A stretch of DNA of 40,049 bases from Candidatus Pacearchaeota archaeon CG_4_10_14_0_2_um_filter_35_33. Its GTDB lineage: Archaea; Nanobdellota; Nanobdellia; Pacearchaeales; GW2011-AR1. Positions 25,559 to 29,287 of this stretch are shown here, piece after piece. A program made the translations under genes and the position numbers. Numbering within the stretch: the first letter of the stretch is position 1; the number at the start of each line of letters is the position of its first letter. The stretch spans positions 1 to 40,049 of the forward strand of contig PFOR01000001.1 in the NCBI GenBank assembly GCA_002792635.1. Direction: 5' to 3'. The notes under the pieces are model-generated. The model was given only the letters and a program-made list of their open reading frames with translations, was not told the DNA's origin and did no database searches.

Positions 25559-25804
25559 ATGAATATAGAAATTATTAATCAGGAAAAGGATTTAATTGAG
25601 TTGAAAATGGACAATATAACTGTGGCAGAAGTGCTGAGAGTTTATTTGAATAACTCTGGAATCAAATTTGCCGCATGGAGGAGAGAGCATCCTGTGAAGC
25701 CGATAGTTTTTAGGATTGAGGATAGTAATGTCAAAAAGGCAGTCAGTGATGCAGTATCTGCAATAAGAAAAGATGCTGATAAGATTGTTAAGGCTGTTAA
25801 ATAG
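25559..25804 (+). CDS. rpoL: DNA-directed RNA polymerase subunit L (Rpo11)
   Basis: 81 residues. It pairs with subunit D to nucleate RNA polymerase assembly. 'LKMDNITVAEVLRVYLNNSGIKFAAWRREHPVKPIVFRIE' corresponds to the L/Rpb11 signature (eDHTl.N.Lr..L......v.faaY...HPl.....l.i.t). The usual 'EDHTF' is replaced by 'MDNIT'. The stop codon lies inside the 8-bp target duplication of the adjacent mobile island, so the gene ends exactly where the island begins and remains intact. Confidence 0.9.
   Translation: MNIEIINQEKDLIELKMDNITVAEVLRVYLNNSGIKFAAWRREHPVKPIVFRIEDSNVKKAVSDAVSAIRKDADKIVKAVK
25797..25804. repeat. Target-site duplication, left copy
   Basis: ttaaatag directly before the left inverted repeat; an identical copy lies directly after the right one at 29280-29287. 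It contains the rpoL stop codon TAG. Confidence 0.85.
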
Positions 25805-25828
25805 TGAGCTGTTAAGTTAGCGGTGCTT
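25805..25828 (+). repeat. Left terminal inverted repeat
   Basis: tgagctgttaagttagcgg is followed by tgctt. The reverse complement appears at 29256-29279 with one mismatch at the twentieth base; the outer 19 bases are identical. Confidence 0.9.
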
Positions 25829-25867
25829 TTTGGAAAGATTTAAAGGGTTCTTTTTCTTAAAACTTCT

Positions 25868-26656
25868 ATGAATGATTTGATTAGAATTGGCTCGGAAACA
25901 GCTAAAGGTGGCTTTGTGAATGAGAAGGCAATAGCGAAAAAATTTGATAATTGGAAAGAAGATAAAGAAGCTCAAAAATGGCTTAAAATAATGGGTTACA
26001 ATTTGAATGAAATAGAAAAAGTAGAAGCTGTTATTTTACACGGATATAAAACTGATGTCCAAATAAAAGTTACAATCACACTCAAAGAAGCTATCTCGGT
26101 TCAAAACTTATCTATAAAGAAAGCAAATAACGACGCAGATTATAACCAGATAGATAAAAGATGGGTAAAAAATTACATTGAATTATGGAGTATCCCAGAA
26201 AATATCGTTAACCTTTTAGAGATTTTTTGTGGTAAAATATCTCCAAAACAATTACTTAGGGAAGAAAAGATAACTAAACAAAAGTATGAAAGTTTAAGAG
26301 ATAAAAGAAGATTTTTTGTTGATGAGTTTGAGAACAGGGATAAGAAATTATTGATAGATTTTTTTAAGAAAAATAAACTATTGGTTATTACTGACATAAT
26401 AAAAGGTAGAGGACAATTTGCGGCTGACTGGATTTTAGTAACAAGATATGATAAAAAGAAAGATGAAACGAGTTGGGTTTTAGCGGATATTAACAAAGCC
26501 ATGAGCATTTTCGGAGAAGGCGAAGTTAAGATAAGCCCAAGAGGTAGTATATCCATTGGCAGAATTACTTTACAAAGAAAGGGTGGAGATGGTGGTAGAG
26601 AAACAGGAAATATGATACAGTTTAAAATAAAACCTTGTAATTTGTTTAAGTATTAA
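25868..26656 (+). CDS. Type II restriction endonuclease-like protein
   Basis: 262 residues. The N-terminal 'GGFVNEKAIAKKFDNWKEDKEAQKWLKIMGY' and 'VEAVILHGYKTDVQIKVTI' suggest a PD-(D/E)XK nuclease in which D63-x-Q65-x-K67 is the active-site strand (QxK variant) with Glu19 upstream. The C-terminal 'SPRGSISIGRITLQRKGGDGGRETGNMIQFKIKPCNLF' is a pattern I associate with Type II restriction enzymes. It is convergent with the methyltransferase, overlapping it by 11 bases. A TATA-like atttaaag (25838-25845) lies 26 bases before the ATG. Call rests on motif reading and neighbourhood. Confidence 0.7.
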   Translation: MNDLIRIGSETAKGGFVNEKAIAKKFDNWKEDKEAQKWLKIMGYNLNEIEKVEAVILHGYKTDVQIKVTITLKEAISVQNLSIKKANNDADYNQIDKRWVKNYIELWSIPENIVNLLEIFCGKISPKQLLREEKITKQKYESLRDKRRFFVDEFENRDKKLLIDFFKKNKLLVITDIIKGRGQFAADWILVTRYDKKKDETSWVLADINKAMSIFGEGEVKISPRGSISIGRITLQRKGGDGGRETGNMIQFKIKPCNLFKY

Positions 26657-27464
26657 ATTTTAATTTAGCTTGTTGTAAAAAAGGTTTTATTCTTTTATTT
26701 GCTTCTTCACAATATTCTTTACTTATTTCAGAACCAATAAAATTACGATTATTTAAAATAGCCATCTTAGCAACCGTTCCAGAACCCATCATAGGGTCAT
26801 AAATTAAATCTCCTTCATTACTCCAAGATAAAATATGGTCTTCCGCTAACTTTTCAGGGAAGATGGCTGGATGTCCATTATTAGATGTTCCGACAGGTAT
26901 CTCCCAAACATTATTTCTTTTTTTATAATCTCCAACGACAAAATCAGGCACAACATCCCTTATTCCATTTGCGTGCTTTCTTGCACCTTTAACTTTCTGT
27001 CCTTTTAATTTTGTTGGAATATCTTTGATTAAATTGATAGCTTTAATTTTTCCTTTAGAAAAAACAAACATATATTCAAAACTTTGACGATAACAAGCAT
27101 TTGAGCCAAAATTAAAACTATTTGGTTTAAACCAAATCATAGTATCATGCAAATTAAAACCAACCCCCTTAAAATAAAGGGCTTGCCTAAAAGAAGAACC
27201 TGTCTCATTTCCTTTAAGGGTTGCATCCCCGACAACCCACACTAAAACACCACCTTTTTTCGTTACTCTATATAATTCTTTTGCTATTTTCTTAAACTCA
27301 AAAGTGTAGCCGTTATAATCTCTCAAGTTGTCGTAAGGCGGAGATGTTATGGATAAATCTATAAAATTGCCGGGCATTGAAGCCATTGTTTTCAAACAAT
27401 CCTCATTATAAATTTTGTTTAACTCCATTCTCTTTTTTCTCATATTCTTTAAACGAATTGCCAT
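26646..27464 (-). CDS. Beta-class DNA methyltransferase (N4-cytosine or N6-adenine)
   Basis: 272 residues. Motif IV 'DLSITSPPYDN' (Ser41-Pro-Pro-Tyr) precedes motif I 'DPMMGSGTVAKMA' (about residue 223) and 'FIGSEISKEYCEEANKRI', the beta-class order. TSPPY favours N4-cytosine but is also seen in N6-adenine enzymes. A target-recognition region lies between. An internal ATG at 27428 (MELNKIYNEDCL) is the family-like start; the frame from 27464 adds a short basic stretch. It lies 1 base after the transposase stop on the same strand, so the two may share a transcript. Confidence 0.88.
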   Translation of the reverse strand: MAIRLKNMRKKRMELNKIYNEDCLKTMASMPGNFIDLSITSPPYDNLRDYNGYTFEFKKIAKELYRVTKKGGVLVWVVGDATLKGNETGSSFRQALYFKGVGFNLHDTMIWFKPNSFNFGSNACYRQSFEYMFVFSKGKIKAINLIKDIPTKLKGQKVKGARKHANGIRDVVPDFVVGDYKKRNNVWEIPVGTSNNGHPAIFPEKLAEDHILSWSNEGDLIYDPMMGSGTVAKMAILNNRNFIGSEISKEYCEEANKRIKPFLQQAKLKFNT

Positions 27465-27465
27465 T

Positions 27466-28425
27466 TTAATTATTTTGTGTTGCTAACCTAATAAGGTCTA
27501 ACCACCTATTATTCCCTACTTGAACATCAACGCTAGCTCTCTCAAATGGCGTTTCGTTTGTGCCGCTATGTAACTCTATAAAGTTGTGTTGTATAACCAA
27601 AGCAGTCATTAAGATTGGTGCAGACCACAACGCCTTAAAACCTCTAAAATCATAAACTCTATCTTTTATTTTCATAAAGACAGTTTCTATTTTGTAATTG
27701 TGTATTCTTGTCTTTTGATAATTTTGTATTTTATGTTCTATGGTTAAGCCGCCGATTTTGTTTGAGTAAAACAATTTCTTAAATGCTTTCGGATAGAATT
27801 GGGCGGCATCTGTTTGGATAAATTTTGGCTTTCCTTTTGCTACCGACTTTTTAATAAATTCCTGTGCCTGTGTTATGCTTCCATTTAAAGAATAATGATA
27901 ACCTGTAATTAAGCGAGTGTTCCAATCAATACAAGCCCAAAATCTATCATGCTTACCCTCTCTTTGTATTTCTGTTTCATCGGCATAAAAGCTATCTCCA
28001 AGATTATAACCAAGTTTTTCTATAAACTTATTTACTTTTAATGTATATCTTCTAACCCAATCTAAAATAGTGATGTGAGAAACTTTAAATGAAAAGTGTC
28101 TTGATAGTTGGTTTCGCATTTTTCTTGAGGATAAATTGGAAACAAACATATCAATAGACATGGTTATTGTTCTCTCGTTAAATCTCATTCTATAAAAACC
28201 ATCGTTGTTAGTAAAGTTTTTACCGCAATCCTTACAATAATATCTCGCTATTTTTCCTCTATATTCTGTTCTCCTATATCCCTTCTTAATGTAATTCTGT
28301 GCTTTACAAAATACACAGCAAACATTTTTATTCTCTTTCTGTTTTACTTTTTTGCATTTCATCGTGATTGGTGATTTGTAGAGTAGCTCTATATGGGTTA
28401 CTCTTATATTGTTAATTAACCACAT
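27466..28425 (-). CDS. Zinc-ribbon DDE transposase (IS6/IS240-like)
   Basis: 319 residues. An N-terminal zinc ribbon (CVFC at 37-40, CKDC at 64-67) and a helical DNA-binding part ('LSRHFSFKVSHITILDWVRRY') are followed by a DDE core: D149 in 'FYADETEIQ', D206 in 'FIQTDAAQFYPKAF' and E247 in 'KIETVFMKIKDRVYDFRGFKAL'. The ending 'LVIQHNFIELHSGTNETPFERA' is typical of the IS240/IS6 type. Spacing is D-56-D-40-E. An ATG at 28362 is an alternative start. A symmetric atttaaat (28446-28453) sits 25 bases upstream of 28425. The gene appears intact. Confidence 0.88.
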   Translation of the reverse strand: MWLINNIRVTHIELLYKSPITMKCKKVKQKENKNVCCVFCKAQNYIKKGYRRTEYRGKIARYYCKDCGKNFTNNDGFYRMRFNERTITMSIDMFVSNLSSRKMRNQLSRHFSFKVSHITILDWVRRYTLKVNKFIEKLGYNLGDSFYADETEIQREGKHDRFWACIDWNTRLITGYHYSLNGSITQAQEFIKKSVAKGKPKFIQTDAAQFYPKAFKKLFYSNKIGGLTIEHKIQNYQKTRIHNYKIETVFMKIKDRVYDFRGFKALWSAPILMTALVIQHNFIELHSGTNETPFERASVDVQVGNNRWLDLIRLATQNN

Positions 28426-28510
28426 ATTATATAATAATATATATTATTTAAATGTTTCGGTAGTTAAACACATACGATAAGTTTATATATTAGTAGGACA
28501 TGTATTTGTT

Positions 28511-28663
28511 ATGGGCAAAATCAAATTTGAAGTAGAAGGTTATCAGTGTGAGAGATGTAAGCACAAGTGGGTTCCGAGAGGAAATGAACGACCTACATCT
28601 TGTCCAGCGTGTCACTCGCCATATTGGGACAAACCACGTAAGCGGAGTAAAAATAAGAAATGA
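28511..28663 (+). CDS. Small zinc-ribbon protein of the island
   Basis: 50 residues: MGKIKFEVEGYQCERCKHKW, then VPRGNERPTSCPACHSPYWDKP and a basic tail (RKRSKNKK). Two CxxC pairs (CERC, CPAC) define a zinc ribbon, and the tail suggests nucleic-acid binding. A TATA element (tttatata, 28482-28489) lies 25-26 bases before the ATG. It is the only plus-strand gene in the right half of the mobile island and could regulate the transposase or the restriction system; this is inference. Confidence 0.7.
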   Translation: MGKIKFEVEGYQCERCKHKWVPRGNERPTSCPACHSPYWDKPRKRSKNKK

Positions 28664-28770
28664 AAAAGTTTAAAAGCATCCAAAAATATATAAAGTAAGG
28701 AGTATTACACTTTATATGAAAAAGCGCGACACATCATATTTCTTGCATTCCAGCACTTTGGAATAATTGC

Positions 28771-28914
28771 ATTACGAGGTTTCGCTCAACCGCCCCCACC
28801 AAAGAGACGCCGAAACTACTTATTCACTCACTTGCTATCGCTTGTTTTTGTATTCGTCGGACTTAATAGGGCTTGACGTTTCTTGCCCGTTCTGTCGTCA
28901 TCCGACCTCGTAAT
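28771..28914. other. Region of nested inverted repeats, possible structured RNA
   Basis: attacgaggt (28771-28780) is perfectly complementary to acctcgtaat (28905-28914). Inside, gtttcg (28779-28784) pairs with cgaaac (28811-28816), gtcgga (28856-28861) with tccgac (28901-28906, competing with the outer helix) and gggc with gccc (28869-28888). The stretch is locally GC-richer than the rest of the island and spans the 3' part of the AbrB-like gene and the space beyond it. Either an RNA element or a transposon-related DNA structure is possible. Confidence 0.3.
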
Positions 28915-29154
28915 ATGATTTGTGGATAAATTTCTAATTGCTGTTACTTCTTCATTCATTAATCTTAAATTTTCTTCTGTCCTAACTCTAACTTCAATAT
29001 GTCCGTTAGCTTTCACTAAAATTTTATCTCCTGCTTTTATCTTATGTTCCTCTATCCATTCTTTTGGCAATGTCATTATAAGAGATGAACCAGATAAGGT
29101 TACTCTTCTTTCTTCAATAACAGGCATTTTTATCAACTCATTTTTAAATTCCAT
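28828..29154 (-). CDS. AbrB/SpoVT-type DNA-binding protein
   Basis: 108 residues. 'RRVTLSGSSLIMTLPKEWIEEHKIKAGDKILVKANGHIEVR' (about residues 17-58) is a swapped-hairpin AbrB domain as found in antitoxins and archaeal regulators. After about residue 70 the sequence becomes Ser/Thr/Lys-rich and unlike the family, overlapping the nested inverted repeats; the 3' end may not be original. A TATA element (about 29177-29187) lies 26-27 bases upstream. It may be the island's own transcriptional regulator. Confidence 0.75.
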   Translation of the reverse strand: MEFKNELIKMPVIEERRVTLSGSSLIMTLPKEWIEEHKIKAGDKILVKANGHIEVRVRTEENLRLMNEEVTAIRNLSTNHITRSDDDRTGKKRQALLSPTNTKTSDSK

Positions 29155-29255
29155 GTCCGTATTATGATTTTTGAAGTTTTTAAATATATCGCTGGCTATA
29201 TCTTATCTTATTTTCACTATATCAAAACCGAAAATCTAAAATTTTACAGAAATTT

Positions 29256-29279
29256 AAGCGCCGCTAACTTAACAGCTCA
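29256..29279 (-). repeat. Right terminal inverted repeat
   Basis: aagcg followed by ccgctaacttaacagctca, the reverse complement of 25805-25828 except for one base. Confidence 0.9.
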
Positions 29280-29287
29280 TTAAATAG
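29280..29287. repeat. Target-site duplication, right copy
   Basis: ttaaatag, identical to 25797-25804, directly outside the right inverted repeat. Confidence 0.85.

Follow-up and report, generated by a model that had tools for sequence, protein, structure and literature searches.

A probable single-unit DDE transposon with type II restriction-modification cargo, from one of two sister families in DPANN archaea

Arguments on how restriction-modification (R-M) genes spread have so far rested largely on the patchy distribution of these genes, and the locus described here raises the question of whether an R-M pair lying beside a transposase gene is carried by one definable mobile element. The locus is part of a stretch of 40,049 nucleotides (hereafter, the window) from the genome of what we take to be a tiny symbiont-type archaeon. 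The boundaries read from the sequence define a unit transposon of 3475 bp at window positions 25805-29279, with the following features:

25797-25804, no strand: left copy of the target duplication, TTAAATAG (duplication rule confirmed in relatives)
25805-25828, + strand: left terminal inverted repeat, TGAGCTGTTAAGTTAGCGGTGCTT (conserved across 39 family 1 elements)
25838-25845, + strand: TATA-like ATTTAAAG, about 26 nt ahead of the endonuclease start codon (sequence only)
25868-26656, + strand: R.HinP1I-family type II restriction endonuclease, 262 aa (PF11463, PDB 1ynm, PADLOC)
26646-27464, - strand: beta-class DNA methyltransferase, SPPY (N4-cytosine type), 272 aa (PF01555, E 2.5e-47; PDB neighbours; partner in genome G426)
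27466-28425, - strand: DDE transposase with an N-terminal zinc ribbon, 319 aa (DDE residues, PF13610, NCBIfam IS6)
28511-28663, + strand: zinc-ribbon protein, 50 aa (relatives in other elements)
28828-29154, - strand: MazE/AbrB-type protein, 108 aa (PF04014, E 3.5e-9; ORF lists)
29256-29279, - strand: right terminal inverted repeat, reverse complement TGAGCTGTTAAGTTAGCGGCGCTT (one mismatch to the left)
29280-29287, no strand: right copy of the target duplication, TTAAATAG

An earlier note on this DNA had described 24-bp inverted ends with one mismatch and an exact 8-bp direct duplication outside them, and its coordinates hold to the base: the arms match at 23 of 24 positions, and TTAAATAG is exact on both sides. 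No other pair around the window transposase combines an exact 8-bp duplication with arms of at least 23/24 in the real sequence. The gene content that the note had listed is also supported. The restriction-endonuclease-like gene and the beta-class methyltransferase are recovered by PF11463 and PF01555, the latter with SPPY before DPMMGSGT; the transposase residues D149, D206 and E247 are invariant across 15 aligned sequences; and the "regulator" is the 108-aa MazE/AbrB-type protein. The 50-aa zinc ribbon was not among the genes listed. It has relatives in elements of both families defined below (L088 and L208, and fused to Fic in L085), and over half of the family 1 elements contain short AbrB-like ORFs. 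The conserved part of the transposase starts near residue 33, and its true start may be Met27.

The left copy of TTAAATAG includes the stop codon of an upstream 81-aa rpoL-like gene (PF13656, with a score under the cut-off). As this stop codon lies inside the duplication, the protein is unaltered by the insertion. The empty site, which the earlier note had named as a supporting result if seen in relatives, is present in two genomes of the same genus, G426 and G389, where the flanks are syntenic with those of the window element and the rpoL-like gene is followed directly by the gene found to the right of the element and then by radB, with no insert. The R-M genes are absent at the rpoL site when the ends are, so that R-M genes in place without the ends, a case that would have spoken against a transposon, were not encountered. 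The 3.5-kb element has moved as one piece into the 3′ end of the rpoL-like gene, where its insertion restored the stop codon and left the 8-bp duplication. We infer that the 24-bp ends are bound by the transposase, which would excise or copy the entire element and insert it at an AT-rich target cut with an 8-bp stagger. We regard it as very probable that this is a single-unit, non-composite DDE transposon with type II R-M cargo, belonging to family 1 of two DPANN sister families.

Rfam gave no match on the element and its flanks. An exact 10-nt inverted repeat, ATTACGAGGT/ACCTCGTAAT, lies inside the element at 28771-28780 and 28905-28914, around a rather GC-rich stretch of 124 nt; the region (28690-28930) is single-copy in the host genome and also lacks an Rfam match. 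A scan of IMG/VR with the transposase alignment found no relative, and hence no sign of viral carriage, and a plasmid collection contained only remote IS6 transposases (23-26% identity).

The assignment of the endonuclease is supported by the R-HINP1I model PF11463 (E 6.4e-69), by PDB 1ynm (E 1.1e-77, with residues 3-260 of 262 aligned) and by PADLOC REase_II (E 3e-92). In the methylase, SPPY precedes DPMMGSGT, which is the beta order, and the closest PDB chains are N4-cytosine methyltransferases. The endonuclease is expected to cut GCGC, an inference for which we have no cutting data. A cytosine-type methylase is the partner we would presume for HinP1I from knowledge of the family, because GCGC has no adenine. 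The pair meets two criteria of a type II system of the HinP1I type, a HinP1I-family endonuclease and an adjoining cytosine methylase that could modify GCGC; action of both enzymes on GCGC is an inference. GCGC occurs in the host at 0.65 of expectation, versus 0.77-0.97 elsewhere; this scarcity is mild and not specific, and was therefore not used as proof of specificity. GATC is far scarcer than GCGC, at 0.24 of expectation in the host stretches (L198-L205 and the window) and 0.28-0.37 in relatives.

The two genes are convergent and overlap by 11 bp at their 3′ ends, and the methylase start codon lies 1 nt past the transposase stop codon on the same (-) strand. We infer from this arrangement that the methylase would belong to the transposase operon and be made from the transposase message, and that the endonuclease would be made separately, from the opposite strand; the TATA-like ATTTAAAG would fit a leaderless archaeal promoter of the latter, although this is only a possibility. 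Such an order would let modification begin when the transposase is made; no methylation was observed.

The nearest endonucleases outside the genus, 73-77% identical to that of the window, are convergent with a different SPPY methylase (L053:9112-10839, L054:6081-7727). One HinP1I-type endonuclease lineage has thus, on these sequences, changed its methylase partner, and the cognate pairing in the window rests mainly on G426. When the window methylase was used as a query, only remote relatives (best 53%) were found in the sampled phylum outside the genus. More distant HinP1I-type endonucleases of the phylum (L055-L060) stand in operons with a 5mC methylase and, in most, a Vsr-like repair endonuclease; no transposon ends were found at these operons.

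Genome G426, empty at rpoL, has the endonuclease and the methylase elsewhere, each 85% identical to that of the window. The DNA similarity to the window element (83.7% identity over 1574 bp) is limited to these two genes. In G426 they lie inside another element, L208:6351-9398, of 3048 bp, with ends TGCATTGTTGC, a 9-bp duplication CCTTGAAGC and a distant transposase. Comparison of third-codon identities between the two genomes gave 0.68 and 0.64 for the R-M genes versus 0.48 for radB and 0.45 for DNA ligase, which indicates that the cassette diverged more recently than the host genes did and moved laterally between vehicles. In the transposase tree, the two vehicles fall into separate clades (SH-aLRT 99 for family 2 and 89 for family 1), and no fewer than 10 changes of the R-M state are required; the tree comes from a quick search and has long branches to the bacterial IS6 outgroup. 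The separate clades, the shared cassette and the third-codon identities together show, at the level of sequence, that the cassette has switched transposon vehicles, in a direction that these data do not determine.

To delimit the family of the window element (family 1), its transposase was searched against 371 genomes of the phylum and the GTDB contig set, ends were scored against TGAGCTGTTAAGTTAGCG, and an 8-bp duplication with at most one mismatch was required. Nearly all genomes compared were draft metagenome-assembled genomes (MAGs). The contig records with transposase relatives are named Pacearchaeota, Woesearchaeota, Aenigmatarchaeota, Nanoarchaeota and others. This yielded 39 non-redundant elements of 1419-4850 bp (median 2719) with 37 distinct 8-bp duplications. 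The same ends are therefore present at 38 other loci, as the earlier note had expected for a genuine transposon, some of them around R-M cargo as its reading predicted. It had also named a transposase always found alone, with different, internal ends, as a refutation. None of the 39 elements carries the transposase only, although the filter would have let through a bare copy, at about 1.2 kb. The reading given in the note is thus supported, including that the ends enclose the R-M genes; its view of the element as unusual needs correction, in that the element is one of a family and not a lone case.

In five family 1 elements the methylase is accompanied by a recognised endonuclease, namely in the window element, L073 and L075 (MvaI/BcnI), L116 (BsaWI) and L122 (PADLOC REase_II). 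In L115 and L120 the methylase is convergent with an unrecognised ORF. For the unidentified partner in L120, the only PDB match was weak and the matched protein is not named as a nuclease; the structure model of the partner was poor. Elements with close transposases differ in cargo (an S66 peptidase in L074, an R-M pair in L075 and a TrmB-like regulator in L106), and other cargo of the family includes Fic, a ParE-like toxin, HEPN-nucleotidyltransferase, a VRR nuclease and TrmB, among others. Some of it is odd: a serpin-like protein (L153:6251-7513, on sequence alone), a proteasome-subunit-like protein (L116:131-955) and the S66 peptidase, of LD-carboxypeptidase/MccF type (L074:10474-11535).

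The transposase from G426 was searched in a similar way against 112 genomes belonging to the same family, with arms and duplication required. This delimited 18 family 2 elements (L208:6351-9398 and 17 further loci, L245-L273) of 2.0-5.6 kb, all with 9-bp duplications. A DNA methylase is present in 12 of the 18, often convergent with a nuclease, and nuclease support for the partner was obtained in 9 of these 12. The partners are HinP1I in L208, MjaI in L257 and L267, REase_II in L271 and, together with a 5mC methylase, in L262; L270 encodes a methylase-specificity protein of 823 aa that matches HSDR_N (IIG-like), in an element whose limits are less sure as its arms are the weakest of the family (14/20). 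In L261, L264 and L269 the methylase is of the D12 type, and the model of its partner resembles T4 EndoII, a GIY-YIG nuclease (match probability 1.00, E 4e-3, model pLDDT 66). Methylase-bearing elements without a resolved nuclease partner are L245 (HNH protein), L256 and L258, and comparison of the unidentified partners in the last two with the PDB gave nothing usable. The proteins of no known family beside methylases (L256:69-3732, L258:3246-8806, L120:4329-7762 and L115:4238-8492, convergent in the last three) are candidates for unrecognised restriction endonucleases. The host of the window element also has a transposase of family 2 whose gene contains an in-frame TGA and adjoins a zinc-ribbon gene (L063, G000:C24:47457-48377), for which no delimitable ends were found.

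Methylase genes are about 20-35-fold over-represented in the two families. With the seed elements left out, PF01555 methylases were observed 5 times versus 0.27 expected in family 1 (Poisson, P = 1e-5) and 6 times versus 0.17 expected in family 2 (P = 3e-8). The background was about 54 matches in 21 Mb from 18 genomes, and is if anything overstated, as fragments were counted. The elements are not fully independent by descent, and hence the P values are only guides.

On the preferred reading, R-M cassettes repeatedly enter and leave such DPANN elements. We propose tentatively, and at somewhat less than even confidence, that small DPANN transposons form a dedicated lineage of two families (8-bp and 9-bp) acting as interchangeable carriers of R-M cassettes. 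In this proposal the methylase often lies directly behind the transposase so that modification accompanies it, the endonuclease sits at the opposite end in convergent orientation, the cassettes are swapped, and the activity of the R-M pair selects for keeping its carrier. What the element gains is inferred, and could be either defence or the killing of cells that lose it. For the window element, it is plausible and reasonable, though untested, that it is retained because cells without the R-M genes would be killed. Such killing after loss is known from other type II R-M systems (PMC3031569), and toxin-antitoxin-like cargo in the family likewise counts against a purely defensive role. On the other hand, it stands close to an even chance that the pair is kept for host defence and not for addiction, the element spreading through immunity to viruses or plasmids and its loss not being lethal. 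The cargo of both families is indeed broader than R-M (Fic, RelE/ParE-like, HEPN-MNT, S66 peptidase, regulators and membrane proteins), so that these elements could persist without a selfish R-M trait.

Only one copy of the element was found in the host genome, so recent movement is not shown, and several relatives have broken transposases. We nevertheless consider it unlikely that the element is a fossil with genuine ends and genes and lost mobility, given its intact 319-aa transposase with invariant DDE residues, its exact duplication and 23/24 arms, the open frames of all its cargo genes and the empty site in same-genus relatives. Present mobility is an inference, as no transposition was observed. 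Still less probable, to the point of being very doubtful, is a pseudo-compound IS6-type unit, in which the R-M genes originally lay between two IS copies that have since lost their inner parts, so that the unit moves via cointegrates only. The transposase has a remote relationship to IS6, and IS6 members do form structures of this kind (PMC7986276), but 39 of 39 family 1 elements have a single transposase copy and ends that are inverted instead of directly repeated, and no element with two transposases was met. A chance neighbourhood of an R-M island and a transposase, or a MAG chimera, for which only the draft state of the host assembly (27 contigs) speaks, is refuted by simulation (none of 100 Markov sequences of the same composition contained a pair with an exact 8-bp duplication and arms of at least 23/24, and 5 reached 16/24), by the synteny of the flanks with two same-genus genomes and by the recurrence of the ends at 38 other loci. 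A composite transposon was also considered and rejected: there is one transposase, the arms are only 24 nt long and no IS pair flanks the unit.

In the preferred reading, a transposon of family 1 with R-M cargo, the vehicle is delimited to the base, and its ends, its duplication, the empty site and a second vehicle with the same cassette amount to one concrete route of R-M spread. With one transposase and 24-bp ends, it offers a small, testable system for asking if R-M cargo stabilises a transposon, and in what order methylase and endonuclease are expressed on arrival in a new, unmethylated genome. As a marker, the ends and the duplication can be used to find defence cassettes in archaea with small genomes, unrecognised endonucleases among them, and R-M-carrying transposons may help to explain gene turnover in these organisms.

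A literature search found no description of either family, although most subscription papers were outside its scope and ISfinder was not covered. As far as checked, no transposon lineage that repeatedly carries R-M genes was known before, and the two IS6-related DPANN families, previously unnamed, are likewise new. One of the close known systems is the IS6 family (archaeal IS6, with an IS240-type DDE domain). The window transposase matches PF13610 with 48.1 bits (cut-off 27, E 1.7e-12), and the NCBIfam IS6 model is matched by 15/15 aligned members; family 1 makes 8-bp duplications in all 39 elements (9 bp in sister family 2), and the N-terminal zinc finger recalls IS6 clade h (PMC7986276). However, the window transposase scores only 80.7 bits against an IS6 equivalog cut-off of 125. 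IS6 elements measure about 0.8 kb (1.76 kb at most), carry the transposase as sole gene and include one member with a passenger gene, ISDsp3, according to a review (PMC7986276), whereas family 1 elements are 1.4-4.9 kb long, have 24-nt ends of another sequence and, as in all elements here, contain further genes. The term IS6-like used in the earlier note is right as to the related DDE domain. The two transposase scores taken alone point both ways on membership; together with length and organisation, the score under the equivalog cut-off places the element as IS6-related, not IS6. With a single transposase and passenger genes enclosed by one pair of inverted ends, and with a target duplication, it meets the criteria of a unit transposon or transporter IS (tIS). 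It differs from tIS in that extra genes are standard in both families, among them complete R-M pairs with endonucleases of several families, and no named tIS family could be assigned. Tn7-like transposons have an unrelated, several-protein transposition machinery and are larger. The families here, with one transposase and 2-5 kb, share with them an exchangeable, defence-rich cargo (PMC8649781). The window pair differs from R.HinP1I in that the endonuclease is convergent with a beta-class SPPY methylase. Finally, R-M genes on transposons or near IS copies are already on record (PMC3031569, PMC4176335), the demonstrated case being IS-linked movement of PaeR7I with IS1/IS5 in E. coli (PMC3031569), and stabilisation by R activity has been proposed. 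As in those cases, R-M genes travel with transposable elements; here, in contrast, the pair lies inside an archaeal unit transposon, repeatedly so, and one cassette is found in two transposon families.
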